Positions 15,535-45,011 of a stretch of 51,282 nucleotides of DNA are shown here, piece after piece. Source of the stretch: Alphaproteobacteria bacterium (GTDB lineage Bacteria > Pseudomonadota > Alphaproteobacteria > Rhizobiales > NORP267); the NCBI GenBank assembly GCA_028599125.1, contig JAQRMX010000056.1:1-51282 (forward strand), in the 5' to 3' direction. Position numbers and translations under genes: made by a program. Within the stretch, counting starts at the first letter, position 1. Every line of letters starts with the position of its first letter. The notes under the pieces were generated by a model. The model did no database searches and was not told where the DNA came from. It saw only the letters and a list, made by a program, of their open reading frames with translations.

Positions 15535-15677
15535 TTCAGGAACAGCCAGTTGCAACGTGTACCAAAGCATCTGATTTCATTGCATAAAACGGTGTTTATA
15601 GCGTTTGTCCTGTACTCGTGAATTGCAGTTGATTGCAGGCAAGACCGTGCAATTCCCGTACAAAAAGGACAATGAAA

Positions 15678-16124
15678 ATGGTTACTCAGCGATTGAAGAT
15701 AACGCAAGCAGCGTGCGAAAAGACACCACCCAACAGCAAGCCGTGGGACACCGAGATTAAGGGCTTCGGCTTGTTCACGGGCAAATCGACGAAGACATTT
15801 TACTATCAACGCGAAGTGCGCGGTAAGACGGTTCGCATCAAACTCGGGAACTTCCCACAGGTCTCCGCAGGCATCGCGCGTGGTGACGTGTTGCAGCTCG
15901 CCGCCGACCATGCGTCGGGCCTGTCCGCAAAGTGCCTCAATGCGTCGAAGATACCGACACCCGCGCAGGCTCTCGAAACGTATATCATGCGGCCCAAGCT
16001 GAGGTCCGAGAGAAACAAACGGCAAATCCACAATCAAATGCACCGACATTTGAAGAACTGTCGTGCTGCATTCATGCGCGCAGATGTACAAAGGCCTCGA
16101 ATGGATCGGTGGCTGTTTGCATAA
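15678..16124 (+). pseudogene. Tyrosine-recombinase integrase remnant, frameshifted and truncated
   Basis: The first part reads like the arm-binding N-terminal domain of P4-type integrases: DTEIKGFGLFTGKSTKTFYYQ followed by RIKLGNFPQVSAGIARGDVL. After about nt 15950 the recognisable linker appears in the other frame (AEVREKQTANPQ, SNAPTFEEL), so there is a frameshift. Similarity stops near 16060. The core-binding and catalytic domains with the R...HxxR...Y residues are absent. The likely start is the ATG at 15678, with AAGGA about 8 nt upstream. It sits directly beside the left attachment repeat, as integrase genes usually do. Confidence 0.72.
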
Positions 16125-16248
16125 ATACACGAACACCTCGAATGGGACCCCTGTTTGAGATGGCGGGACGCCGAACCGGGTCTTCACAGAATTCTCCAGA
16201 AACATACTGACCACCCACTTGGGTGCCATGCCCACGCCCGTCAATCAT
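16072..16248 (-). CDS. Small ORF coupled to mrr, unknown function
   Basis: A 58-codon frame starts with an ATG that overlaps the mrr stop codon (ATGA), a common sign of translational coupling. It begins MIDGRGHGTQVGG and ends with EAFVHLRA at a stop near the point where the integrase remnant breaks off. GHGTQVGG resembles a subtilase histidine motif, but nothing else supports a protease. It may be a real small partner of Mrr or the truncated start of a longer gene cut by the same deletion that removed the integrase. Not recognised. Confidence 0.4.
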   Translation of the reverse strand: MIDGRGHGTQVGGQYVSGEFCEDPVRRPAISNRGPIRGVRVFMQTATDPFEAFVHLRA

Positions 16249-17180
16249 CCACTCAAATCCGCAGCCTCGTCAAAATATGCCTCATCAATCTGCTTGATAT
16301 GCAGAATATCTTTATCGCGGCATCCAATGTTGTGCTTGATCATCAGCTTTGCCAATTGAGAACCGTCGATTAGAACAATCCGAGCTCCCAAGTTCTTAAC
16401 CGTTTGCGTCGCAGACATTGTGAAGTGAGAGGTTGTGACAAAAATTCCTTTGGTTGTCTTCATGATGCTTAGAGCACCGTAGAATTCCCGGATATCGCCC
16501 GGCCCAACGCTGTTGCCTGCCGCATAGCGTTTTGCCTGCAAGTAAATTTGATCGACGCCGAGAGGGTCCTGATCAATAACACCATCCACGCCGTTATCGC
16601 CTGACTGCCCTAACGCCCTGCCAGCGTCTTCAGACGGTCCGCCATAGCCCATAGCTCTCAAGAGATCGACGATAAGGTTCTCGAAAAAACGTGGGGATGC
16701 CGAGCGAACACAGTCGAGCAGGTTTGCCGCTAGCGCAGCCTCAAGTTTCTTGTGTGCGGCCTGAAGGTTTTCGTCGGGCGTGTTAGAAACACTTTCGGAT
16801 TCCGCTGAATTGAACGTACTTTCCTGCTCGTCACTTTCTTTGCTTCGGGCTTTAAATTCCTGAAACTCGTCAAATTTCGCAAGAAATTTGTTATTGAGAA
16901 CGACATCTACATTTTCTTGAACAGAGCGCCCTCTGTCCGTCAATTCATACCAGCCGCGTTTGACGTTTTTCACCAACCCAGCTTGCTTCAGGTAGGACCG
17001 GGCCCAATGCACTCTATTAGCAAATTTCGTCTGACCGCCGCTTGGAAGTAGCTGCTGTCTCTCCTCGTCGCTCAATTCGAGACGATTGGAAATTTCTTCG
17101 ACCACATCCGAAATCTTTCGTGGTTCATTTTTTGCGCAATCCAAAACCGGGCGCATCAAAGACTGGTATTCAGGAATCAT
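16245..17180 (-). CDS. mrr: Mrr-type restriction endonuclease
   Basis: A 311-residue Type IV-like restriction enzyme that would cut modified or foreign DNA. The N-terminal winged-helix region (about 1-90) has WARSYLKQAGLVKNVKRGWYEL, and a glutamate/serine-rich linker follows. The C-terminal PD-(D/E)XK domain shows FFENLIVDLLRAMGYGG, GDNGVDGVIDQDPLG and QAKRY: the aspartate of GVDGVI and the glutamine-alanine-lysine are the catalytic core. The ATG at 17180 (MIPEYQSLM) matches the usual Mrr start better than the upstream TTG at 17195. It lies in the mini-island and may be its retained cargo. Confidence 0.92.
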   Translation of the reverse strand: MIPEYQSLMRPVLDCAKNEPRKISDVVEEISNRLELSDEERQQLLPSGGQTKFANRVHWARSYLKQAGLVKNVKRGWYELTDRGRSVQENVDVVLNNKFLAKFDEFQEFKARSKESDEQESTFNSAESESVSNTPDENLQAAHKKLEAALAANLLDCVRSASPRFFENLIVDLLRAMGYGGPSEDAGRALGQSGDNGVDGVIDQDPLGVDQIYLQAKRYAAGNSVGPGDIREFYGALSIMKTTKGIFVTTSHFTMSATQTVKNLGARIVLIDGSQLAKLMIKHNIGCRDKDILHIKQIDEAYFDEAADLSG

Positions 17181-17379
17181 CGGCACTCTTTTCAAAATAT
17201 TTTGTTCAGTTTCACTATACTCTTCGGAGAGAGTTCATACACCCGCCAAAGCCCCGGACAACTCGTCAGCGCTTACGGTTCCACGCATCTCCCGACCGCA
17301 CACACCCAATCCAAACTGCACTCTATGATATGACGCGCGCTGCGATCAAATTATGCGCTCCTGAATGCAACAATAACGC

Positions 17380-25278: not shown

Positions 25279-25983
25279 ATGAGTGCTCGACGTGAATCTC
25301 TGGGGCAGGGTGCACAAAAAATTAATAAAACAGCCAGAACCCAGATGAAAAACCCCAATATTTTCTGGTATGCACTCCTTGTTAGGTCAGGTAAGGAATT
25401 TCTTGCTCAACGAATTTCGCAACAGGGAGGTGCTTATGTTTATCTTCCGCTTTGCTGGAAATGGCGCCGGCTCAATCGCTATAAACGTGAGAAGAGCAAA
25501 TTGGCCTACCCTGCTCTTCCGGGTTGTCTCTTTATCGGCTTTGAATCAGGGAAAGAGGAATGGCTCTGTTTGGTCAGGTCTGTTACAAGCCTGCGGGGAT
25601 TGCTGGGGTGTTTTGGTATGCCTCTTGCCCTAAGAGGGGAGCGTCTTTCCTTTTTTATTGAGAGTAATTTTATGCGCTTTGATGTGCCACAGGAAGAGCG
25701 ATATATGCGCACACATCATGAATTTCAGGCCGGTGATCAGGTGCAGATTACCAGTGGTCCTCTTGTGGGCTATATTGTTGATGTTCAGAAGATCAGTGGG
25801 AAATATGCTTTTATATTCAATGAGATTTGTCATGAGACGAAAATATCACTTGACAAATTAGAGAAGATAGACTATAATATAAAACATAATGATGTAACAA
25901 GGATCTGCGCGTGTCCTACAGACCCTGATGGGTTTGAGGGGGTTAAGAGCCGCTCCTGTGAGGGACGGGTATCTTCAAAGTGA
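25279..25983 (+). CDS. Phage NusG/RfaH-like antiterminator candidate
   Basis: A 234-residue protein with the NusG layout: an NGN domain at about 28-140 (FWYALLVRSGKEFLAQRISQ, AYPALPGCLFIGFE) and a KOW domain at about 150-190 (FQAGDQVQITSGPLVGYIVD). NusG paralogues bind RNA polymerase and can suppress termination on selected transcripts. Placed just before terminase and transcribed with the late genes, it could act as a processive antiterminator of the phage late operon. That role is inferred from position. A basic N-terminal extension of 28 residues precedes the NGN domain. The ATG has AAAGGA 7-8 nt upstream. Confidence 0.82.
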   Translation: MSARRESLGQGAQKINKTARTQMKNPNIFWYALLVRSGKEFLAQRISQQGGAYVYLPLCWKWRRLNRYKREKSKLAYPALPGCLFIGFESGKEEWLCLVRSVTSLRGLLGCFGMPLALRGERLSFFIESNFMRFDVPQEERYMRTHHEFQAGDQVQITSGPLVGYIVDVQKISGKYAFIFNEICHETKISLDKLEKIDYNIKHNDVTRICACPTDPDGFEGVKSRSCEGRVSSK

Positions 25984-28366: not shown

Positions 28367-30538
28367 ATGGCAGAGGGGAAAATGAACAAACAAATAAAAA
28401 ACGACGCGATAGAAGATCATGACAAACTTGCTTGTTATGTTGCTGATCTGATCGAAAAATGTGAAATTTATTCAGATGAACAAAAACATGATCGTACGCG
28501 CGCGCTCGAATATTACGATGGAAAGATGAATGATTTGCGAGCTGAAGACGGACGCTCTCAGTCTGTCTCCAGAGATGTGCGCTCTGTTATCAGGAAGCTT
28601 ATGCCTTCAGTTTTGCGGACATTGCTGTCAAATGAAAAGATCGTTGAATATCATCCATTAAGTCCAGAAGATGAACTGAGTTCACAGCAGGCAACCGATT
28701 ATATAAATCACGTTATTCTTCATGAAAGTGGAGCCAGGAGAGCCATTTATGATTCTATTTTTGATGCCCTGACTGTGAAGACAGGCATCATAAAATGGGT
28801 TGCTTATAAACGGAGAAAATCAAGGATTCATGAATACACCAACCAGCCATCTCTAGCCTTGCTGGGACTGGAAGGTGAGGAGGGCGTGGAAATCTTTGAT
28901 CGTAAGGATTGGTTGGAAACGGATCCTTTTATTCTTGCTATTAACCCCGAAGCAGAAAGGCATGACTTCAAACTGCGCCGCACGGAAGAGCGTATTGACA
29001 TTCGCCTGGAAGCGATCCCGCGAGGGTCTTTTCTCATTTATCCGAACGCGGTCAATATCGGTGAAAGCCCCATTATTGGGGAACGACAAATTGTTACAAG
29101 ATCTGAATTAGTCAGCCGAGGATATAATAAAGACCAAGTTGCAGCTCTCAATGTGTGCAGAGGAGAAAAAGACGATCTTGAAGATAGGCAGGCCCGGCAG
29201 GGTGATGACTGGACTGACATAAGGGCTGAAATGTCTGCCGCAATGGAAGAGGTCCTCTTGTATGAGGTCTATGTGAAGCTTGATCAGGATCATGACGGTA
29301 TTGCTGAACTTTACAAAATCTGCCTTGCGAGAAGCAGAGGAGACGGAGGGGGACCACAGATCATCCTTGAGATGGAAGCGGTAGACGAAGCGCCTTATAC
29401 TCAGATCGTTGCTGAACAGGAAGCGCACCAGTTTGAAGGTCATTCCGTAGCGGAAGATGTGATGGACATCCAGCGCATCAAAACGGCTCTCCTACGGGAA
29501 ACACTAGATAATATTTATTGGCAGAACAAAAAGCAGCCTGCTATTGATCCTTCCCGGCTGACGGAGAGCGGGATGGAGGCTATCTATAACCCTGCATTCG
29601 GAAAGCCTATTCTCCTCAAAAGTGGAGCCAATGTCCATGAAGCCATTCAGTGGGGTAACGTCCCTTTCGTAGCGGACAAATCCTTTGCCATGATGTCTTA
29701 CCTCGATAATGAGGCGCAAAATCGGACCGGGATTACCGAAAGCGCCGGGGGCGTTAATCCTGAACTCCTGAAGGATATGACAAAATTTGCAGCCATTTTG
29801 ATTTCTGAGAGTGGGATTGCAAGGGCGGCCATGATCATTGACACTCTCTCCGGGAACGGTGCTGCAGACGGGAGCGGGATTGCAAGGGCGTTTAAGGGCT
29901 TACTCAAACTTGTGATTGCCCATACTGATCAACCCCGCACTGTCTGTCAGGGAGGAAAATGGGTTGAATATGATCCGCGTCAATGGAACGTAGAGATGAA
30001 TTGCATTGTCAATGTCGGGTTGGGGGCAGGCTCAAAGGAGCGTGATCTGGCTGTCTTGCAAATGATCCTTGGGCTCCAGAAGGAATTGATTGCAATCATG
30101 GGAGCCAATAACCCCTTTGTGACGCCGGTGCAGATTTATAATGTCCTTGAAAAGATCACAGAGACAGCTGGATTTTCCAGCGCAAATCCCTATTTCACAA
30201 AGCCGGATGAGGAGGCGATCCGGAGACATTTCCAAACAGAATTGAAGCCATCCGAAAATGACGAAAAATTCCATATGCAAATGGAGCTGGAAAAACTGAA
30301 AGCGACGCTGAAAATTCAGATTGAGAAAGAACAAATGGAGGCTGACCTTTGCGTTCAGCAGGCTGAATTAGAGAAAAACAAGTCTATCCAATTGTTAAAA
30401 ACCGAGCAAGAGCGCGAAATCGCCATGATGAAAAGTCAGTTTGATTGGTTGAAATATCAAGAAAAAATGAACTTGGAGCGACAAAAAGCCGGATTGGAGA
30501 GACCAGGGAAACAGGTTGCGGATCAGGAAAAAAGCTAG
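28367..30538 (+). CDS. Phage portal protein
   Basis: A 723-residue portal, of the large size found in podovirus-like phages. The early region has ALEYYDGKMNDLRAEDGRSQ and SVSRDVRSVIRKLMPSVLRTL, and the middle has NIYWQNKKQPAIDPSRL, characteristic of this portal family. The last 110 residues form a charged helix (about 620-715, MELEKLKATLKIQIEKEQME) resembling the long C-terminal barrel helix of P22-type portals. The portal forms the dodecameric ring at the capsid vertex through which DNA enters. The ATG at 28382 (after GAGGGG) is an alternative start. Confidence 0.88.
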   Translation: MAEGKMNKQIKNDAIEDHDKLACYVADLIEKCEIYSDEQKHDRTRALEYYDGKMNDLRAEDGRSQSVSRDVRSVIRKLMPSVLRTLLSNEKIVEYHPLSPEDELSSQQATDYINHVILHESGARRAIYDSIFDALTVKTGIIKWVAYKRRKSRIHEYTNQPSLALLGLEGEEGVEIFDRKDWLETDPFILAINPEAERHDFKLRRTEERIDIRLEAIPRGSFLIYPNAVNIGESPIIGERQIVTRSELVSRGYNKDQVAALNVCRGEKDDLEDRQARQGDDWTDIRAEMSAAMEEVLLYEVYVKLDQDHDGIAELYKICLARSRGDGGGPQIILEMEAVDEAPYTQIVAEQEAHQFEGHSVAEDVMDIQRIKTALLRETLDNIYWQNKKQPAIDPSRLTESGMEAIYNPAFGKPILLKSGANVHEAIQWGNVPFVADKSFAMMSYLDNEAQNRTGITESAGGVNPELLKDMTKFAAILISESGIARAAMIIDTLSGNGAADGSGIARAFKGLLKLVIAHTDQPRTVCQGGKWVEYDPRQWNVEMNCIVNVGLGAGSKERDLAVLQMILGLQKELIAIMGANNPFVTPVQIYNVLEKITETAGFSSANPYFTKPDEEAIRRHFQTELKPSENDEKFHMQMELEKLKATLKIQIEKEQMEADLCVQQAELEKNKSIQLLKTEQEREIAMMKSQFDWLKYQEKMNLERQKAGLERPGKQVADQEKS

Positions 30539-31973: not shown

Positions 31974-31997
31974 AGACTTTCAAAAAAGGTGAATGAA

Positions 31998-32987
31998 ATG
32001 GCAAAAATTGCACATACTCTAATATCATCTGATACGGTTGGGAACCGGGAGGATCTCTCTGATGTTGTGAGCAGAATCACGCCGGAAGACACTCCCATTT
32101 ATTCCATGATGAAAAAGGAGACAACGACATCCACTCACCCTGAATGGGAAATTGATGAGCTTTCCGCTCCTGGTGAAAATATCAACAGTGAAGGGGATGA
32201 ATTTGATTTCGATGAAGTCAAGACGCCTGATCGTGTAGGAAATTATACACAGATTTTCCGAAAAACATGGTCTGTTTCGGAGACGCAAGAGGCAGTAGGA
32301 CATGCCGGAAATGTTGAAAAAATCAAATATCAGAAGCTGAAAAAGGGGATTGAGGTCCGTAAGGACATAGAATTTGCTATTCTTTCAAATAGGGCGTCCT
32401 CGGCTACTGACCCACGTAAAATGGGATCTCTGGCCTGCTGGTACGAAACAAATGCGACCCGGGGAAGGGGAGGAACGAATGGAGGCTTTGAAAAGAGAAC
32501 GGGTCTGACCAGTGCAGCTGGTCAAGGAGAGAAGCGCGCGTTTACAAAGGCGCTTCTGGATGCAACCATGCAGCAAGTCTACACTTCAGGTGGAAATGTC
32601 AGGTTTGCCGTTTGTTCCCCTTACGTCAAATCCGTCTTCACGACCTTCATGTCAGATGCCAATGTAGCCCATTTTCGCTATGCCGCCTCCGGTGGAAAAA
32701 ATACGATTATTGCCACGGCAGATGTTTATGAGGGAGATTTCGGAAAGGTGATGATCGTTCCCAATCGTGTTCAGTCTGCGAATGATACACTGGCTTCCAA
32801 CGTTCATCTTCTGGACTCTGATATGCTTTCCTTTAAAAATCTCCGCAAGATTCAGGATGTCAGGAACCTTGCCAAAACGGGTGATGCCCAAAAAGGCGTG
32901 ATTATTGGTGAAGGAACGCTTTGTGTAAAAAATGAAAAGGGGATTGGAGTTGTTGCCGATATCTTTGGAATGAATGCGCTTGCTTGA
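31998..32987 (+). CDS. Major capsid protein, SU10-like (DUF5309 type)
   Basis: A 329-residue capsid protein. Features: MAKIAHTLISSDTVGNREDL, SRITPEDTPIYSMMKKET near residue 30, FRKTWSVSETQEAVGHAG near 90, EVRKDIEFAIL, and the C-terminal FGKVMIVPNRVQS with KNLRKIQDVRNLAKTGDAQK. These match my memory of the SU10/DUF5309 capsid group found in podoviruses and some siphoviruses. The ATG at 31998 has AAGGTG upstream; the GTG at 31989 is less likely. It follows the scaffold gene by 24 bp. Confidence 0.82.
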   Translation: MAKIAHTLISSDTVGNREDLSDVVSRITPEDTPIYSMMKKETTTSTHPEWEIDELSAPGENINSEGDEFDFDEVKTPDRVGNYTQIFRKTWSVSETQEAVGHAGNVEKIKYQKLKKGIEVRKDIEFAILSNRASSATDPRKMGSLACWYETNATRGRGGTNGGFEKRTGLTSAAGQGEKRAFTKALLDATMQQVYTSGGNVRFAVCSPYVKSVFTTFMSDANVAHFRYAASGGKNTIIATADVYEGDFGKVMIVPNRVQSANDTLASNVHLLDSDMLSFKNLRKIQDVRNLAKTGDAQKGVIIGEGTLCVKNEKGIGVVADIFGMNALA

Positions 32988-35059: not shown

Positions 35060-36685
35060 ATGTTAAAAATTGAAAAGGCGCGCCTCCGTCCAAGGAATCG
35101 CGGAGTGATGGGAAAAGGCCCTCGAATTTTTACGAAAACAAAGACTTATATGGCGCCTTCAGGCGGCTGGGTCACGAATGTAAATCTTGCAAATCAGCCT
35201 TCCGGTTCGGCTCTGGTTCTGGAGAATTTTTTTCCCACGGAAAGGGGAATCCTGCCACGAGGGGGCGCACGCCGCCATGCCGTTGTGCCGGGCAAGGTCG
35301 AAAGTTTGTTCGAATTCAGGGCATCGAAGGAAAGGCAGTTTTTTGCCGCAACGAAAAAAAATATCTATCTCTTTGGCCCACAGACAAAGGCAACAGACAA
35401 ATTGCCAACCGTTGTGACCGGTCAGACGGGAGGAATTTACAGTGTTCTTGAAATGCAAACAGATGAGGCCAGTTTTCTTTCAATTATTAACGGGCATGAT
35501 CCCCTACAACTTTATGACGGCGTAAAATGGCAACAGGTTACAGCCCATTCATCACCTTATGCCATCAGTAACATCGATACGTCCCTGTTGAGTTTCAACT
35601 GGGTTTACAGAAATCGACAGTTTTTTATACAAAAGGGGACGATGAATGTCTGGTATCTCGGTATCAATAGTGTTGCAGGCTATGCAACGAAACTTCCTCT
35701 TGCAGGAATTTTCGTCCGGGGAGGTCAGCTTTTATTTGGTACGACATGGTCTTCAGACAGCGGTGCAGGGATGGATGACCGCTGCGTTTTTGCAACTGAC
35801 AGGGGTGAATTTGCTGTTTTCAGCGGAGATCCCATAGATCAGTGGTTGTTAATCGGCATTTATGATGTTGGTATTCCTCTAGGCAACAAGGGATTCATGT
35901 CGGTGGGAGGTGATGTTATCATCGCGACAAAGGGTGGCATGTTTCCTATTTCCAGTGTGGTTCAGAAGGGATTAAACCAGTTGAAATTGTCTTCCTTGTC
36001 AGAATGTATTGATACTGACTGGAGAAAGGAAAGTTGTGCCTCTGTTTCTTCTGTTGGTTGGCGCCTTGTGAAATGGGAAAAGCAGAATATGGCGTTTGCA
36101 ACCTCCCTGGGAGTAAATGACAATCATACAAGTTGTTTTGTCGTCAATCTCAGTACAGGCGGTTGGTCCAGATTAACGGGATGGAAAATCTCTGATCTAA
36201 ATGTTCTTGATGACAAGCTCTATTATGCTGATATGTCCGGCGTTATTTTTCGGGCTGATTGTGGGGGGACGGATGATGAGCAACCTATTTTCTGCAAGGC
36301 CTGTTTTTCTTTTGATCTTCTGGAAGAACCCCTGGCGTTTAAACAGGCCCAGCTTGTGCGAGGGGTTTTCTCTCATTCCTTACCCTTTGAGGCGAGGCTG
36401 GGGGTTGCAGCGGATTATTGTCTGTCTTTCGGAGTGGAAAAGGAGCTATGGGACAGCGGGGACTACGGGGTCAATCCTGCTTCATGGGACCGAAATGCGT
36501 GGGACCAGGGCTTATGGTTCCTTCATGACAATAATGAGAAAATCAGTCAACGCTGGAAAAGTGTAAGTACGCAGGGGCAGGCGCTTGCGATACAGTTGGA
36601 GATTATGTCCTTTGAGCCCTACAAGCTTGATTGCGAACTGATTTCTGTTGATCTTGTCTATTCCACAGGTACGGCAATCGCGTGA
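35060..36685 (+). CDS. Tail nozzle / DNA-stabilization-like protein
   Basis: A 541-residue, beta-rich protein. It starts with a basic region, then APSGGWVTNVNLANQPSGSA and LENFFPTERGILPRGGARRH, a motif common at the N terminus of podophage tail nozzle proteins; WNVxxxWDQGLW-like tryptophan motifs near the C terminus (SWDRNAWDQGLWFLHDN) support this. It would close the portal channel and form the lower tail. The next gene overlaps its stop (GTGA). Confidence 0.72.
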   Translation: MLKIEKARLRPRNRGVMGKGPRIFTKTKTYMAPSGGWVTNVNLANQPSGSALVLENFFPTERGILPRGGARRHAVVPGKVESLFEFRASKERQFFAATKKNIYLFGPQTKATDKLPTVVTGQTGGIYSVLEMQTDEASFLSIINGHDPLQLYDGVKWQQVTAHSSPYAISNIDTSLLSFNWVYRNRQFFIQKGTMNVWYLGINSVAGYATKLPLAGIFVRGGQLLFGTTWSSDSGAGMDDRCVFATDRGEFAVFSGDPIDQWLLIGIYDVGIPLGNKGFMSVGGDVIIATKGGMFPISSVVQKGLNQLKLSSLSECIDTDWRKESCASVSSVGWRLVKWEKQNMAFATSLGVNDNHTSCFVVNLSTGGWSRLTGWKISDLNVLDDKLYYADMSGVIFRADCGGTDDEQPIFCKACFSFDLLEEPLAFKQAQLVRGVFSHSLPFEARLGVAADYCLSFGVEKELWDSGDYGVNPASWDRNAWDQGLWFLHDNNEKISQRWKSVSTQGQALAIQLEIMSFEPYKLDCELISVDLVYSTGTAIA

Positions 36686-37131
36686 CCCCTTTCTGGCCGG
36701 GGCAGAATACACCTCTGTCCCGTTTTATTGCGGATTTTGTTTCAAGGGAAATTTACTGCGTTCCCGGAAAATTTCGTGACTATACGGCTCTAGGTGTTTT
36801 TGATTCCTGTGTTCTTGTCGCCGGTGTTCTTTACTATGATTACGATAGGGATGCTGGAGTTCTGCAAATATCAGCCGCCGCTACGACCCCGCGTTGGCTG
36901 ACCCGCTCTATTCTTTGGGACATCTTCGATTTTCCCTTCAATCAACTGAAGTGTCAAGCCATTGTTATGCGCGTTGATCCGGCCAATCGAAGGCTTGAAC
37001 GTATCCTGAAGGCTTATGGTTTTTCTGCCTATAAAATCCCCCGGCTCAGGGGCCGTGAGAAAGCTGAAATGCTTTACCTGCTTGGCGATGATGTATGGCG
37101 TCAGAATAATTTTCACAAGAGGAGGCTGTGA
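36682..37131 (+). CDS. GNAT-fold acetyltransferase-like phage protein
   Basis: A 149-residue protein starting at a GTG that overlaps the preceding stop. The central and C-terminal parts resemble GNAT acyltransferases: VAGVLYYDYD, ILWDIFDFPFNQLKCQAIVM and DPANRRLERILKAYGFSAY, where the NxxxxRxLxxxGF pattern is the acetyl-CoA-side helix and strand. Similar small GNATs occur among tail genes of alphaproteobacterial podophages. The substrate is unknown; it may modify a virion or host protein. Confidence 0.65.
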   Translation: MTPFWPGQNTPLSRFIADFVSREIYCVPGKFRDYTALGVFDSCVLVAGVLYYDYDRDAGVLQISAAATTPRWLTRSILWDIFDFPFNQLKCQAIVMRVDPANRRLERILKAYGFSAYKIPRLRGREKAEMLYLLGDDVWRQNNFHKRRL

Positions 37132-38384
37132 TGGGAAAAAAATCTGCTGACCCGACCCCCCCCAGACAAGTTGCTTCGGCACAAACGGGAGCAAATATGA
37201 ATGCGGCAATCGCCAACTCGTATCTGAACAATATCACAAGGCATACACCGGATGGCACGACCAGGATTGAGGAGACAGGCAGAAAGAGTATCTACGATCC
37301 TTATACCTATAAAAAGTATGATGTGCCGACTTTCACACAATATACGGAATTATCTCCTGAACAGATGGCCATAAAAAAACAGCAGGATAAGGCAAAGCTC
37401 GGTCTTGCGACATTAGGTGCCGAACAAACGGAACGGATTAGTGGTCTTTTGCAAAAAGTTCCTGTTTTTGACGATATTCCAGCATGGAAAGACTTTTCTC
37501 CTTTTCAAAAGGTAACCTTTCAACGTTCAGGTGCCGCCCCTGCGTTAAAAACGTCTTATGAAACAGATTTTTCCAAGGAGGGAAATCGGGTTGAAGAGGC
37601 GTTTCTGGAGCGGATGAAGCCACAGCAGCAACGCGATATGGAAAGGCTGGAAAGCCGACTGGCCTCTCAGGGCATCCGGCTGGGATCGGAATCTTATCGT
37701 GAGGCGATGGAAACTCATGCACGGACGCTCAATGATGCTCGTCTAGGGGCTATTCTTGCCGGAGGGAAGGAAGAGGAGAGGCGTTTCGGAATTCAGCACC
37801 AAAAGGCCCAATTTGCTAATAAGGCGAAACAGGCCATGTTTGAAAACACGATGCAAAGTGCGCTTTTTAACAGAAATGCCGAAATTCTTGAAAAAAATCA
37901 TGAACAGGGGCGAATAAGGGCACAAAATGATCTCCGAAATCAAGTGTTGCAGGAAAAAATAGCGATAACAAATGATCCCATCAACAAGATTACCGCTCTT
38001 CTAAGTGGGTCCCAGGTTACCTATCCGCGGTTTCAGACGTCAAGAATGGCAACAATCCCCTCTACTAATATGGTCAATATCTTTGCCAACAGGGATCAGC
38101 AAAAGATGTATGAGGCCAAAAGGAAAAATGACCTCGTAAAGACAGCTTTAAGAGGTTTCATCGCGTCTGACCGTCGCGTGAAAAAAGATATCAGATCCGT
38201 GGGAATAACCCATGATGGCCAGTCTGTCTATCGATTCAGGTACAAATCCGGTGGTCCTGTCCGGATGGGGCTCATGGCAAATGAGGTATTGAAGAAATAT
38301 CCGGAGGCGGTCTCAGATGTCGGCGGCATCAGGATGGTAGATTATGCAAAAGCACTTAAACAGGCTTCACGAAAGCCTGTCTGA
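37131..38384 (+). CDS. Virion protein with C-terminal S74-type chaperone domain
   Basis: A 417-residue protein. The N-terminal 330 residues are helix-rich and unrecognised (ERLESRLASQGIRLGSESYR is typical of phage internal/ejection proteins). The last 65 residues look like the intramolecular chaperone and autoprotease of tail spikes: SDRRVKKDIRSVG with the Ser-Lys pair, VYRFRYKSGG, MGLMANEVLKKYPEAV and MVDYAKAL. The domain normally trimerises and self-cleaves before its serine. The ATG at 37131 has GGAGG 5 nt upstream. Confidence 0.72.
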   Translation: MGKKSADPTPPRQVASAQTGANMNAAIANSYLNNITRHTPDGTTRIEETGRKSIYDPYTYKKYDVPTFTQYTELSPEQMAIKKQQDKAKLGLATLGAEQTERISGLLQKVPVFDDIPAWKDFSPFQKVTFQRSGAAPALKTSYETDFSKEGNRVEEAFLERMKPQQQRDMERLESRLASQGIRLGSESYREAMETHARTLNDARLGAILAGGKEEERRFGIQHQKAQFANKAKQAMFENTMQSALFNRNAEILEKNHEQGRIRAQNDLRNQVLQEKIAITNDPINKITALLSGSQVTYPRFQTSRMATIPSTNMVNIFANRDQQKMYEAKRKNDLVKTALRGFIASDRRVKKDIRSVGITHDGQSVYRFRYKSGGPVRMGLMANEVLKKYPEAVSDVGGIRMVDYAKALKQASRKPV

Positions 38385-38480
38385 TTCTTCTTTGTGGCGT
38401 GAGTGAATAAGGCCCGCAAGAGAGAGCGCAAGTGGCAAAAGAACATAGAATCTGCTGGTCATGAAAGAAGGGAGATTATC

Positions 38481-39746
38481 ATGGTTTTTTTCAGATCTTC
38501 GAAAAAGAAGGGTTCTGAAATGCGTCATATCCAGGGTGCACCAGACCCTGAGGGAACAATGCGGGCTTCAATTTTAGCCTTTTTAAGACGACAGAGGCTG
38601 ATCGATGGACATACCGGTCATTTAGTCGTCCCGCAGGCAAAACAGAAAGACGATCCGATGGACAGGGATAATAGCCTTGATAGTGGGGAGAGTGTTTATA
38701 GGGAGGGGTTGCTTCTCCCGCCTTCTTTTTTTGAGAAGCAGGGAAATGAGGATATGGGAATCTCTCCACAGAAAAGAGAGGGGATCTCAAGGATATGGCT
38801 TGAAAAATTGCAACGGGAGCCTTTGGATTTGAAAAGGAAGGAGCGGGAGCCGGAACAGAAATCTGCTGAAGGCAGGGATGCGGATATTTTGGCCTTCCCC
38901 CGTCTTTTTTTACAAAAGAGGGAGTGTGATGATCGGTTCGTTTCCGATAGCCATATCCCTGATAATCACATAAGCGATTATCAGGGTACCGGCAATCTTC
39001 TCCCCGGCCTTGCTTCTGAAACAGACGTGTCTGCCCATCTTGCTCCTTTATTTCCTCCTTCTTTTTCCTCTCCTGATCCTGCGTCTGGATTCACGGAACG
39101 ACAAGACGGAATGGGAGCCCAGACGCAAGGGAATGCTTTTGAAGCCGTAACGGACAAAGCATCCCTTATCTCACCGCCGCATTTATCCTCCCTGTTTGCT
39201 CTGCGGTTAAAGGCAGGAGATCTAGACCCCGGAGAAATGATAAGCAGTCAAGACAGGTCTGCTCAGGGCGGGTCTCCCCATGTCCTGAACGAGCTATTGC
39301 AGGTCCAGAAGGCTGACAGAGGAGATGAAAGGGAAAAACAACAGGTAGCGGTAGCAGATAAGGCTGACAGAATTCCTCCTACGGAACTGTCTTCCCATGG
39401 AGGAGAGCCAAAGGGGCAATCAGGTGAGTTAAAAGCTCTTTCCGGGGAGCCCAAAGTTCCTGCAAAGATGGAAGAGAAAGAGGAAAGCCTGATACAGGCC
39501 ATCCACATGGAAAAGATGCGCGCTGAGGCCGTAAAGGTGATCGCGGCGTGGATCCTGGATGAAGTCAAGAAAATCAATGAAAGAGCGATAGGGGATGAGA
39601 AAAGGGCTGAAACCGGCAAGGAACCCGTGTCGTCGGGGGAGGAAGAAGAAGATCAGTACACAGCGGAAGACCGAGTGAACGGGAGACAGCTTTCCTCTTC
39701 CTCTTACCAGCGCATGAAGGCATGGAACCCATGGTCTATGAAGTAA
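38481..39746 (+). CDS. Large low-complexity phage protein, unknown
   Basis: A 421-residue hydrophilic protein rich in S, E, K, P and D with few hydrophobic stretches. Short internal repeats occur near the C terminus (GGEPKGQSGELKALSGEPK), followed by a helix MEKMRAEAVKVIAAWILDEV. The ATG at 38481 follows AAGGGAG; the GTG at 38403 lacks a site. Between the S74-domain protein and tail fibre, it may be an ejected internal virion protein or assembly factor. Not recognised. Confidence 0.55.
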   Translation: MVFFRSSKKKGSEMRHIQGAPDPEGTMRASILAFLRRQRLIDGHTGHLVVPQAKQKDDPMDRDNSLDSGESVYREGLLLPPSFFEKQGNEDMGISPQKREGISRIWLEKLQREPLDLKRKEREPEQKSAEGRDADILAFPRLFLQKRECDDRFVSDSHIPDNHISDYQGTGNLLPGLASETDVSAHLAPLFPPSFSSPDPASGFTERQDGMGAQTQGNAFEAVTDKASLISPPHLSSLFALRLKAGDLDPGEMISSQDRSAQGGSPHVLNELLQVQKADRGDEREKQQVAVADKADRIPPTELSSHGGEPKGQSGELKALSGEPKVPAKMEEKEESLIQAIHMEKMRAEAVKVIAAWILDEVKKINERAIGDEKRAETGKEPVSSGEEEEDQYTAEDRVNGRQLSSSSYQRMKAWNPWSMK

Positions 39747-39888: not shown

Positions 39889-40809
39889 ATGGAACGCGGG
39901 CAACAGAACCGGGAATCATCTTCTCATGAGGAAGAGGGCAAGGAGAAGCAGGATACGCAGGAAAAAAACAGGCCCTTATTGTCAACCGGAGAAGATGAAA
40001 ACAAGTTCAGGAGACGTTTTAGTTGGAAGCAGGACCGAGAAAATGGAATTCTTATTTCTGCTGATCGCATGGATCTGGAAATGGATAATATTTTTCAAGC
40101 TTTTAATTCTATTTTGCAGGGAAAAATTTCCTTTGATGCGCCCCTGAGAACTGTTCACGGAACAGAAAGCGCGCCTGCTTTTAGCTTCATCGAGTCACCA
40201 CGGACCGGATTTTACAGCAAAGTGAACGGAGAAATAGGAGTTACCCTTGAGGGGACCGAAATTGGAACTCTTTCTCCTGACCTTTTGAGTCATTACAAGG
40301 AAAAGGATAATCCTCATTCCGTAACGGTTGAGCAAATTGGTGCGGTTCCTGCGTCCAGTTATACTCTGGAAGAGCTTTGCAAGACATTATCGTCAGGGGG
40401 GGGCGAGGGGTCCGGGATCAATGCTGATCTGCTTGATGGCATACATAAATCTGATTTCGTTCTTAAAACGCAGAGCGTTTTCACCAGTGGAGGGCTTACA
40501 GGTGGAGGGGCATTAAATGGTGATCTTATGCTTGATCTCTCCTATGCTTCGGAACAAGACCTCCAAGAGTCAACAGATAATCAAAAGGTTATGACCCCCT
40601 TGCGAACGAAGCAGTTTTTCTCTTCTTTTTCTAGTGTTCCAGTCAAAATTTATTTTTATGGGATGAAATTCGAGAATGATAATCTCATTATTTATGAATA
40701 TACAGGGGATGAGGAGTATCAACAGGCTGGCTACCTCTGGACAGATATTACGTCGTTAAAAATGAATCCTGTCATTGACGATAATGGTCATTTTGTCCTG
40801 GAAATATAG
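39889..40809 (+). CDS. Tail fibre protein
   Basis: A 306-residue fibre subunit. The first 45 residues are charged. It then has SAPAFSFIESPRTGFYSKVN and EIGVTLEGTEIGTL, the repeat-like sequence found where fibres attach to the virion. INADLLDGIHKSDF is the ADLLDGxxxxxF motif common in phage tail fibres, and SGGLTGGGALNGDLMLDL follows. The C-terminal 90 residues form a short beta domain. It likely attaches the RCC1 receptor protein encoded next. Confidence 0.75.
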   Translation: MERGQQNRESSSHEEEGKEKQDTQEKNRPLLSTGEDENKFRRRFSWKQDRENGILISADRMDLEMDNIFQAFNSILQGKISFDAPLRTVHGTESAPAFSFIESPRTGFYSKVNGEIGVTLEGTEIGTLSPDLLSHYKEKDNPHSVTVEQIGAVPASSYTLEELCKTLSSGGGEGSGINADLLDGIHKSDFVLKTQSVFTSGGLTGGGALNGDLMLDLSYASEQDLQESTDNQKVMTPLRTKQFFSSFSSVPVKIYFYGMKFENDNLIIYEYTGDEEYQQAGYLWTDITSLKMNPVIDDNGHFVLEI

Positions 40810-40821
40810 GAGACTGAAGCT

Positions 40822-42504
40822 ATGCGGATTGACCTTGGAAAACTGAAATTCAACTGGAAAGGGCAATATAAGGATGATGTGACTTACGAGAAAGATGATG
40901 TTGTCTTTTATGACGGCTCCTCCTATATTTTTGTTTCCCTCAATCCTCGTTCCAAAATTCCACCATCTCGCCTTATTCCTCCATTTCAAGTGAATCTCTC
41001 CGGGGACGTCTGGGATCTTATGACTTTTGGCATTCCATTGGTAAAATCTTCCGGGGTGCTTGTCTTTTCTGATGAATCCGGTCTTTCTGTCCTCCCTCCA
41101 GGAAAGGAAGGGATGGTTTTAACCTCCCATGGGCTTTCATCTCCGGAATGGGAGATGGCGAACAAAAAGTTTGTTCTGCGTTTGCCTAATACGGACTATC
41201 TCTACGGGGCCTTCTGTAGCGGGAGCGTGATATTGTCTGATGGGACGCCCCGTTCCTGGGGTGATGGATCTTACGGCCAACTCGGTCAGGGGGCCTCGGT
41301 AGGCAAAAATAGATTTAAACCTGTTATGCCCGTATTCCCCAATAAAGATATCTTTGTTGAAGAATGGCATCGATCGGGATGCGAAAATTTTTGTCGGATG
41401 TCAGATAGATCAATCTACAGCTGGGGTCGTAACAGCAGTGGATGTCTGGGACATGGACATACGTCCCCCGTATTTCTTCCTACGAAAGTGGAAGCGCTTG
41501 AAGGAAAGAGCATTTCTAATATTTACTTTGGGCAAGGAAATAGTTCTCTCCGACAGCATGTCCTGTTTTTGTCAGAAGATGGCTTAGTTTATGCAACGGG
41601 TAACAATGAATCCGGTCAATTGGGTGTGGGATATGATGTTTTAATCAAAACACCTTTATGTCTTTCGAAGAAGAATTGGTTTTGTATTTTTTCTATCGGA
41701 ACTCAAGGAAAGAGCCGGAGTTTCGGTATTGACTTTGAGGGGGCGTTATGGGGCTGGGGAGACAATAGTGACTATGCTCTGGGTACAGGAAGGGGAAGGA
41801 AGAAGTATTATCTTCCTACAAAAATTGATCTTCCGTTAAGCTGTTTTTCTGTTTCCAGTGGAATAGATTATGATAGAGGGATCTTGGTAGGACATACGCT
41901 GGCTTTGCTTTCAGATGGAAGCGTTTTCGGCTGGGGACGGAATCAATCCGGGGAATTGGGGTTTAAAAGTTCAATCTATGAAAGGATCCCGAAACTTATT
42001 TCATCGTTGGGGGACGATAATTTCCTTGTTTTTGCTTGGGGCAGTCTGTCTGCTTCATCCTTGGTGCTCAAAAAAGATCGGACTCTCCGCGTTTTCGGCT
42101 CAAACCAATCTGGACATCTTGGCATAGGGTCTATGACTTCGACGTTCTCCCCGATGAAGCCAAATATCAATGAAACGTCCCCCATTAAGCAGATTTTGCC
42201 GATTGGAACTTCTTTGCATCGATCGCTTTTTCTGCTTTTTGAAAATGGGAAGCTTTTTGCGTCAGGTTACAATAAAAGCGGTACTCTTGGTCTAGGGGAT
42301 TTTGAAAACAGATCCTTTTTTGAAGAGGTTCCCCTGATGAATGAAAAGATTATTTCTATGTGTGCTGTAGGACAGGGAGCTTCTGTAAGCATCGGAATTC
42401 TGACCGAAAAAGGCAATTATTATCAAAGTGGTTCGGGCACGAACGGACAATTGCCGTGGGAAGAAATAGAAAAGTCGAGTGTTTTTTGCCCGATCTCTTT
42501 CTGA
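40822..42504 (+). CDS. RCC1-repeat beta-propeller tail protein
   Basis: A 560-residue protein 12 bp after the tail fibre. Residues about 8-40 (FNWKGQYKDDVTYEKDDVV, YDGSSY) form a short domain common in phage tail and carbohydrate-binding proteins. From residue 145 on, eight RCC1-type motifs repeat about every 55 residues, at 146, 201, 259, 312, 371, 426, 482 and 536: WGDGSYGQLGQG, WGRNSSGCLGHG, TGNNESGQLGVG, WGDNSDYALGTG, WGRNQSGELG, FGSNQSGHLGIG, SGYNKSGTLGLG and SGSGTNGQL. They would make a seven-bladed propeller. As the last tail gene it is probably the receptor-binding tip. Confidence 0.88.
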   Translation: MRIDLGKLKFNWKGQYKDDVTYEKDDVVFYDGSSYIFVSLNPRSKIPPSRLIPPFQVNLSGDVWDLMTFGIPLVKSSGVLVFSDESGLSVLPPGKEGMVLTSHGLSSPEWEMANKKFVLRLPNTDYLYGAFCSGSVILSDGTPRSWGDGSYGQLGQGASVGKNRFKPVMPVFPNKDIFVEEWHRSGCENFCRMSDRSIYSWGRNSSGCLGHGHTSPVFLPTKVEALEGKSISNIYFGQGNSSLRQHVLFLSEDGLVYATGNNESGQLGVGYDVLIKTPLCLSKKNWFCIFSIGTQGKSRSFGIDFEGALWGWGDNSDYALGTGRGRKKYYLPTKIDLPLSCFSVSSGIDYDRGILVGHTLALLSDGSVFGWGRNQSGELGFKSSIYERIPKLISSLGDDNFLVFAWGSLSASSLVLKKDRTLRVFGSNQSGHLGIGSMTSTFSPMKPNINETSPIKQILPIGTSLHRSLFLLFENGKLFASGYNKSGTLGLGDFENRSFFEEVPLMNEKIISMCAVGQGASVSIGILTEKGNYYQSGSGTNGQLPWEEIEKSSVFCPISF

Positions 42505-42506
42505 AA

Positions 42507-42782
42507 ATGAAGGAATTACCTCTCTTGTGCGCTGTTGGACAAGACCCTTTTGCAAGCATCAGGATTTTGATCAAAGAAGGTAACTTTTATCAAAGCGATC
42601 TCAGCCTGAACGAACAATTTCCGTGGAAGAACACAACGCAGAAGGAGTGTTCTTCACCTGAGCTTTTTTCTGAGAAGGAAGAAAGGAAGAAAAATGCAAT
42701 TATTCGAAATCAGATCAGAAGCAAAGCCGAAGTGCCTTGTAGGTCTGGAAGAGAAACACTCACCTGTTTACATAGGGTATAA
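42507..42782 (+). pseudogene. Duplicated, out-of-frame RCC1 C-terminal segment
   Basis: Immediately after the RCC1 stop, another frame encodes LLCAVGQDPFASIRILIKEG and NFYQSDLSLNEQFPWKN, a diverged copy of the last 50 residues of the RCC1 protein (MCAVGQGASVSIGILTEKG, NYYQSGSGTNGQLPWEE). A +1/+2 shift separates them from the main gene. An ATG at 42507 could start a 91-codon product, but its downstream half overlaps the next gene and loses similarity. It is best read as a tandem duplication of the 3' end that became out of frame. Confidence 0.68.
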
Positions 42783-42999
42783 TTATCTGGCTCTTTTGGA
42801 AGAAGGAACAGGCACCGCTGACGGTGATGAGCCTAGGAAATTTGAAGAAAATGAGGACTTCAAGGAAATTGATTGGAAAAAAGATCCCCAACTCCGGAAA
42901 AAGATCATTTCCGAATTTCTCTCTTATACGGAAGAAAAAATAATGAGCGATGAGGAAATGTCTGTTTATCAGTCCTTAACGACCTTCGTTTCTTCTTAA
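42694..42999 (+). CDS. Small tail-region protein, unknown
   Basis: A 101-residue acidic protein. It starts MQLFEIRSEAKPKCLVGLEE and has HSPVYIGYNYLALLEEGTG, then a charged helical end (PQLRKKIISEFLSYTEEKIM). The ATG has AAAGGAAGAAAA upstream. It follows the receptor-like gene, where fibre-assembly chaperones are often encoded, but I see no specific match. It overlaps the frame with the RCC1 duplicate. Confidence 0.6.
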   Translation: MQLFEIRSEAKPKCLVGLEEKHSPVYIGYNYLALLEEGTGTADGDEPRKFEENEDFKEIDWKKDPQLRKKIISEFLSYTEEKIMSDEEMSVYQSLTTFVSS

Positions 43000-43721: not shown

Positions 43722-45011
43722 TTGAAAATAAGCGAAAAAGGTATTTTAGAAATTATTACCCATGAGGGGATCGTCCTATCCCCCTACAAGGACTGTGTCG
43801 GGATCTGGACTGTAGGAATCGGCCACACGAAAAGCCTAAGGAAAGGGCCTCAGTTTTTTGTCAGAAAGGCCTTGTCTTCCCGAGAGGTTATGGCACTTTT
43901 TCTGAAAGATATTGCTCCTTGCTTGGAGCGCGTGCGCACGATTTTCAATCGGGATATCACACAAGAACAATTTGATGCAGCGGTATCTTTTGATTTTAAC
44001 ACCGGTGCCCTTCTTCGTGCTTCATGGGTGAGGCATTTCAACAATGGTCATGATGATAAAGCTAAAAAAGCATTTATGGCATGGTGTAAACCGTCCCAAA
44101 TCATTGAACGGAGGCGAAAAGAAAAAAAGCTCTTTTTTGAGCAGAAATATTCAAGTTCTGGATATGTGGTTCTTTATCCTGCTTCATGCACGGGTGATGT
44201 GCTGTGGGGGCAGGGACAGAGGGTGTCTTATTCCGATTTTTTCGTTAAGCCCGGAGGGAGGGACGCTAATTCAGGACTTTCTTCCGGGCGCTTTACGTCC
44301 CGAAAAGAAACAGACAGAAAAGAGACGACCAGAAAAACGGCGCCAATGGGAATAAAAGAGGAGGTGTTTGATGAGCAGCTTTCTCCTGACCCTGCTATGG
44401 TTCCCTCATTTCGACCACAGCAAGATCAGGAGATTACACGCGCTGTGCTTGAAAAATTTTCTTATCTCACTCCGGTAGATTATCAGAACGATTTGATTAA
44501 GGTCCTGATGGTGCGAGGATATTATATGAATATTATGGGAAATAAGGGACAGAATGAACGCGCTGTTTATGATGATGCGCTCTTTGTCGTTTCCCCGGAA
44601 GGGACGCAATCTTTCAATGGAAATGCAGATCCTTCCATATTTCGCAGGGGGATTGCAACGATTAAGGATCCACAGGCTATCCAGTATAGTCCCGGATTGC
44701 ACGGATATAACCGGAGAGCGGGCCCTTATCCGGCTTTTTGTCAGGAGGCCCCCTGTACGGTTATGCGTGATGGCAGAGGAGAAGATACTGGCTTGTTTTT
44801 TGTCAATCTCCATCGTGGGGGAGTTGAAGATACTTCATCGAAGGGTTGTTTGACGGTTCCCCCGAACCAGTGGAAGGAATTTTACGCGCTTTTATGTGGC
44901 CTGCTTGAAAAATATGGGCAGTCCACTTTTTTCCTGACATTACTGTCCTATCCTGAAGATGAGCCTCCTGTGATCCTTTCCAGTGGCGGGGCCGCGTACA
45001 GGGAGAGTTAA
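43722..45011 (+). CDS. Endolysin: GH24 lysozyme fused to an L,D-transpeptidase-like domain
   Basis: A 429-residue lysis protein. The N-terminal domain (about 1-140) is a T4-type muramidase: E15 in HEG, D24 in YKDC and T30 in WTVGIGHT match the E11-D20-T26 spacing of T4 lysozyme, and FDAAVSFDFNTGAL matches its second motif. A low-complexity linker follows (about 175-235). The C-terminal domain has VNLHRGG (H364) and SSKGC (C376), the HxxG...SxGC pattern of YkuD transpeptidases and related phage lysins. The start is TTG at 43722 with GGGAGG upstream. No signal peptide is seen, so it depends on the holin. Confidence 0.85.
   Translation: MKISEKGILEIITHEGIVLSPYKDCVGIWTVGIGHTKSLRKGPQFFVRKALSSREVMALFLKDIAPCLERVRTIFNRDITQEQFDAAVSFDFNTGALLRASWVRHFNNGHDDKAKKAFMAWCKPSQIIERRRKEKKLFFEQKYSSSGYVVLYPASCTGDVLWGQGQRVSYSDFFVKPGGRDANSGLSSGRFTSRKETDRKETTRKTAPMGIKEEVFDEQLSPDPAMVPSFRPQQDQEITRAVLEKFSYLTPVDYQNDLIKVLMVRGYYMNIMGNKGQNERAVYDDALFVVSPEGTQSFNGNADPSIFRRGIATIKDPQAIQYSPGLHGYNRRAGPYPAFCQEAPCTVMRDGRGEDTGLFFVNLHRGGVEDTSSKGCLTVPPNQWKEFYALLCGLLEKYGQSTFFLTLLSYPEDEPPVILSSGGAAYRES

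Follow-up and report, generated by a model that had tools for sequence, protein, structure and literature searches.

The window (the whole stretch of 51,282 nucleotides that was analysed) contains a phage element with a head and portal of the SU10 type, in which a gene with RCC1 repeats follows a fibre-like gene. The relevant features, all on the forward (+) strand, are the following:

28367-30538, +, SU10-type portal protein (PF23899, 2.7e-161)
31989-32987, +, SU10-type major capsid protein (PF17236, 2.2e-86)
35060-36685, +, phrog_5107 structural protein, standing where a tail tube or nozzle is expected and putatively acting as such
37128-38384, +, phrog_6121 virion structural protein with an S74-like end (domain and PHROG matches)
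39889-40809, +, gene of a 306-aa fibre-like protein, ending 12 nt before the RCC1 gene (weak PHROG matches, position)
40822-42504, +, gene of the predicted RCC1-propeller tail protein, 560 aa, ATG start (Pfam and PHROG matches, predicted fold)
40822-41169, +, N-terminal domain of tail-fibre type, residues 1-116, ending with the linker motif LPPGKEGMVLTSHGLSSPEW
41218-42492, +, predicted RCC1 beta-propeller, residues 133-557, with eight motifs and about 30 predicted strands
42526-42626, +, decayed tandem copy of 42359-42459 (3' end of the RCC1 gene), 73% identity, a probable relic
42694-42999, +, ORF of 101 aa, unknown function, coding-like codon use
43722-45011, +, phage lysozyme (endolysin; PF00959, 2.7e-21), extended by a further domain at the C-terminus

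The genes of the portal, the capsid protein, the phrog_5107 protein, a small protein and the phrog_6121 protein occur in the same order in Rhizobium phage RHph_N2 and Sulfitobacter phage pCB2047-C, which agrees with the description of the element as podovirus-like in the initial annotation. Downstream of the phrog_6121 gene we find an ORF of 447 aa, the fibre-like gene, the RCC1 gene and then the lysozyme. The 447-aa ORF (38403-39746), whose codon use is coding-like, encodes a charged, probably disordered protein for which no relatives were found, and it occupies the place of two large proteins of the related phages; its sequence gives no match to the internal protein of RHph_N2. Judging by the host-type genes that we read from the sequence on both of its sides, the phage element is integrated; no clear attachment-site repeats were found around it. 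Among other genes of the window are a fragment that includes an integrase arm-binding domain (PF13356), adjoining an Mrr restriction endonuclease (PF04471) at 15633-17195, a NusG-like gene (PF02357) in the prophage early region (25279-25983), possibly a phage antiterminator, and an N6/N4 DNA methyltransferase (PF01555) close to the right end of the contig (50035-50940).

The RCC1 gene is preceded just 5' by AGGAG, a ribosome-binding site. Its product matches the Pfam families WD40_RLD (4.8e-55) and RCC1 (1.1e-45, seven significant stretches), with 188 bits for PF25390 (curated cut-off 150) and 154 bits for PF00415 (curated cut-off 21.7), i.e. with RCC1 repeats above threshold. The eight RCC1 motifs about 55 residues apart that had been reported for this protein were recovered: motifs of the G-x-N-x-x-G-x-L-G type are located at residues 146, 201, 259, 312, 371, 425, 481 and 536, with a spacing of 53-59 residues. 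A loose RCC1 pattern gives nine matches (one of them overlapping) in the protein, whereas 2000 shuffled versions gave 1.8 on average and never more than 7. The PHROG families of the RCC1 matches are assigned to the category "DNA, RNA and nucleotide metabolism". Since the gene sits in a tail module, a role of the 560-aa protein as a guanine-nucleotide exchange (Ran-type) or chromatin factor is unlikely.

An AlphaFold model of the 560-aa protein, calculated from 12 aligned sequences (pLDDT 76.4, pTM 0.72), predicts an RCC1-type propeller; structure prediction had been proposed as a check. The top PDB matches in Foldseek are the propellers of UVR8 (the best one, 9e-30), HERC2, RPGR and RCC1; the TM-score by target for the best match is about 0.75, and the best viral match extends over 478 aligned columns at 3.0 Å. 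The initial annotation had expected a closed propeller of seven blades; the propeller itself is predicted, while seven as the number of blades is doubtful. The predicted strands form seven four-strand sets between residues 163 and 538, and the strands at residues 133-148 and 551-557 are candidates to close an eighth blade, split between the termini of the propeller. The same motif columns are present in the aligned homologues. Because of the eight motifs, these shared columns and the strand counts, eight blades appear likelier than seven in the model.

The N-terminal domain was likewise described correctly as that of a tail protein: it matches tail-fibre PHROGs (phrog_9851, 9.6e-6; phrog_5073, 9.8e-5), and in a sequence search residues 3-110 resemble the N-termini of proteins from Pelagibacter podoviruses, HTVC024P gp43 and Gjalp gp33. 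The genes of these proteins are located directly 3' of a tail fibre gene, as the RCC1 gene is of its fibre-like neighbour, but the proteins are shorter (about 265-270 aa), have C-termini unlike that of the RCC1 protein and show no match to the RCC1 propeller. Since they share the N-terminal domain and differ in the C-terminus, this domain looks like an adaptor for swappable distal domains.

The RCC1 gene had been placed directly after a tail fibre gene and before lysis genes. The first position is correct, whereas the identity of the fibre is based on its location and on weak matches (2.8e-17 to phrog_14100, whose function is unknown, and 5e-4 to tail-fibre phrog_8147); a direct search in phages found no relative of this gene, nor could it be aligned with its fibre counterparts in RHph_N2 and pCB2047-C. 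Its product is a candidate anchor for the RCC1 protein. The lysozyme is indeed encoded downstream, but it is separated from the RCC1 gene by the 101-aa orphan ORF, for which no phage relatives were found, and by about 720 nt of apparently non-coding sequence. The C-terminal half of the lysozyme matches phrog_3000 of unknown function (8.8e-9).

A scan of IMG/VR with the single 560-aa protein yielded no matches, and the alignment-based scan detected more than 500 RCC1-encoding stretches, the best seven of which (L013-L019) are collinear with the full window protein. Together with 12 contigs from bacterial genomes, these seven contigs carry full-length collinear homologues with 25-27% identity, for the most part as tandem pairs. 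In L013 to L017 the RCC1 gene is surrounded by tail genes of long-tailed phages: upstream, if the contig extends that far, there is a tape-measure-like gene, and downstream lie genes of a minor tail protein (phrog_396, a match tested in L013) and of NlpC-like or tip-like proteins; the names tape measure, NlpC and tip were read from the sequence. In L018 the neighbours are a podovirus-like portal and a relative of phrog_5107. Thus, homologues occur mostly in tail loci, and not mainly in the non-phage contexts that had been named as an argument against a tail role. The bacterial contigs are mostly from Burkholderiales, including Cupriavidus pauculus and Achromobacter pulmonis, and probably represent one prophage lineage, as the loci are very alike; all 12 possess a second RCC1 gene directly upstream of the homologue. 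For instance, the protein from C. pauculus CCUG 12507 is collinear with residues 3 to 558 and shares the N-terminal domain, the motif columns and the tail locus, but it has only about 26% identity, is found in a long-tailed-phage setting with a tape measure, and belongs to a tandem pair of RCC1 genes. L112-L123 share a near-identical prophage tail region, yet their MAG labels differ widely and include a Bacteroidetes one, which may reflect binning error or contamination.

These homologues bear on the possibility that the RCC1 protein is a structural or decorative part of the tail (a collar, a whisker or a connector of fibres), with a propeller that keeps other components in place and binds no receptor. 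Tail position by itself does not prove receptor binding, and such a role is possible: propellers do serve structural functions in tails, e.g. the nozzle protein of SU10 has a propeller to which short fibres are docked (PMC9509320), and the conserved tandem RCC1 pairs could form a hetero-assembly. Identity as low as that given above despite full collinearity is more in keeping with a module that sets the host range than with an invariable scaffold, and so is the different fibre-like gene in the corresponding region of L149, the prophage whose capsid protein is closest (74% identity). We regard a structural or decorative role as unlikely.

RCC1 domains are also found in tail proteins of named phages. 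In the Pseudomonas podoviruses Ppr_SeaP2 and PollyC they are joined to an N-terminal fibre domain of T7 type; in these phrog_4219 fibres the RCC1 propeller is distal, as we propose for the window protein, and in Ppr_SeaP2 the gene precedes the lysis genes, but the N-terminal domain is of the T7 gp17 type, whereas that of the window protein is short. An RCC1 gene is located 3' of the tail fibre gene in C. difficile phage LIBA6276 and cyanophage S-SRM01, and RCC1 proteins are encoded in Helicobacter prophages as well. Aphanizomenon phage Yong-DA was dropped as a tail-locus relative, as polysaccharide genes surround its RCC1 match.

The genomic neighbourhood was analysed for 80 RCC1-bearing IMG/VR loci, picked by similarity to the window protein and including near-duplicates. 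When 72 upstream neighbours were scanned, tail families (tail fibre, tail fibre assembly and others) made up 17 of the 25 PHROGs that occurred most often, compared with one tail family and no fibre family among 25 in the control (71 genes more than 5 kb away in the same loci); as the families overlap, these counts are an indication of enrichment rather than a census. The PHROG families 4219, 7220 and 16766 are filed under DNA metabolism, and their members have fibre N-termini or adjoin tail genes; for these three the category is probably misleading.

That category is one of two grounds for considering the protein a virion component that organizes or condenses phage DNA. The other is published: a DNA-ordering role was suggested for the eleven RCC1 proteins of phAPEC6 by analogy with eukaryotic RCC1 (PMC7247149), and a DNA role for those of E. 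coli phage W70 on the same analogy (PMC11370258). The tail-fibre domain at the N-terminus of the window protein, the T7-type fibre N-termini fused to RCC1 in other phages, the tail-tip gene order of the homologues and the comparison of their neighbours with distant genes all speak against this role, which we consider very unlikely. In W70 three RCC1 proteins, assigned to phrog_4219, were detected in the virion by mass spectrometry (PMC11370258), and the RCC1 protein gp001 of Cronobacter phage GAP32 was found in the virion by the same method (PMC5259590). These phages resemble the element of the window in possessing RCC1 proteins, theirs seen in particles; they differ in being large contractile-tailed phages, in the several copies of W70 and in the proposed DNA condensation, and their RCC1 proteins are distant relatives. 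No direct report linking a phage RCC1 protein with receptor binding was found in the literature searched.

To trace the origin of the RCC1 module, we considered 298 sampled genomes of the order. SU10-type capsid genes were detected in 10 of them (the genome of the window included), and no RCC1 match was found in the region taken from L149. RCC1 matches occur in 9 of the 298 genomes, and the N-terminal domain is covered in that of the window alone; in the five genomes sampled from the same family no RCC1 relatives were found. The absence of RCC1 from the L149 region and the unique coverage of the N-terminal domain suggest that the module was probably acquired or exchanged within the phage lineage. 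The initial annotation had also raised the idea of a host-directed adhesin of a domesticated element, i.e. an adhesin or effector directed at eukaryotes and carried on phage particles. The small genome of the bacterium (1.43 Mb, 99.8% complete) hints that it lives in association with a host, eukaryotes commonly have RCC1 domains, and some expected phage genes are missing from the element. This idea finds no support, given the collinear homologues in prophages of ordinary bacteria such as C. pauculus and A. pulmonis, and the lack of RCC1 relatives in the same family gives no sign of long-kept domestication; we find it highly improbable.

In our reading, which we consider probable, 40822-42504 encodes a virion tail protein of the prophage, whose first ~110 residues would dock onto the fibre encoded directly upstream, and whose RCC1 propeller would be the distal module making contact with the next bacterium at its surface, probably via loops on the propeller face. 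The propeller would be swapped among phages like other receptor-binding modules. The domain architecture, the predicted fold and the conservation of the tail locus come from the sequences themselves, and from them we infer the docking partner, the binding of a ligand and the presence in particles. That the RCC1-propeller protein is a tail protein is well supported, and receptor binding would be its most likely job. Propellers have precedents in both receptor-binding and structural roles, given the SU10 nozzle and the receptor-binding protein Gp45 of S. aureus phage phi11, a five-bladed propeller (PMC4901313). The likeness to Gp45 is one of principle, in that a receptor-binding protein of the tail bears a propeller; Gp45 is not of the RCC1 type, its structure is solved and its glycan receptor is known.

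Several features would also fit a decaying prophage whose RCC1 gene is now without any function. No integrase was found among the window ORFs examined, and no prophage genes match the two proteins of about 640-745 aa that follow phrog_6121 in RHph_N2 and pCB2047-C, for which reason the prophage may be defective and produce no infectious particles. Searching the whole host genome for the large internal protein of L149, with no positive control, gave no match. Just past the stop codon of the RCC1 gene lies the decayed 101-nt duplicate of its 3' end (42526-42626), whose frame is open; since about half of its residues are kept, it is probably a non-functional relic, and it may be a remnant of tandem RCC1 genes like those of the relatives or of allele exchange. 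Against loss of function, the reading frames of the checked structural genes, the fibre, the RCC1 protein and the lysozyme are open, with coding-like codon use. A functionless remnant seems to us rather unlikely, and it would be compatible with a receptor-binding tail protein as the origin of the gene.

The initial annotation had envisaged a new type of receptor-binding protein, a view at odds with the recurrence of RCC1 in many phage tail genes and, according to the data of others, in virions. Instead, the window protein adds a new member to a class of phage tail proteins that recurs under ill-chosen names and probably has a receptor-binding role, and a large share of the phage proteins annotated as "regulator of chromosome condensation" probably belong to the tail. 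Both the domain fusions and the neighbouring genes point to the tail for phage RCC1, against the DNA-metabolism annotation and the proposals of DNA condensation, and make a concrete test possible in laboratory phages. More tentatively, and with somewhat less than even confidence, we suggest that RCC1 propellers, perhaps eight-bladed, are widespread unrecognised receptor-binding modules of podoviruses, siphoviruses and myoviruses that are now filed as DNA-condensing regulators; if this is true, they join the known receptor-binding folds. Two IMG/VR contigs (L031 and L032) contain eight RCC1 ORFs apiece, RCC1 tail genes having been expanded there in tandem, and the marine virus AG-345-E08 (L012) has at least three RCC1 ORFs amid fibre-like, oxygenase-like and transferase-like genes.
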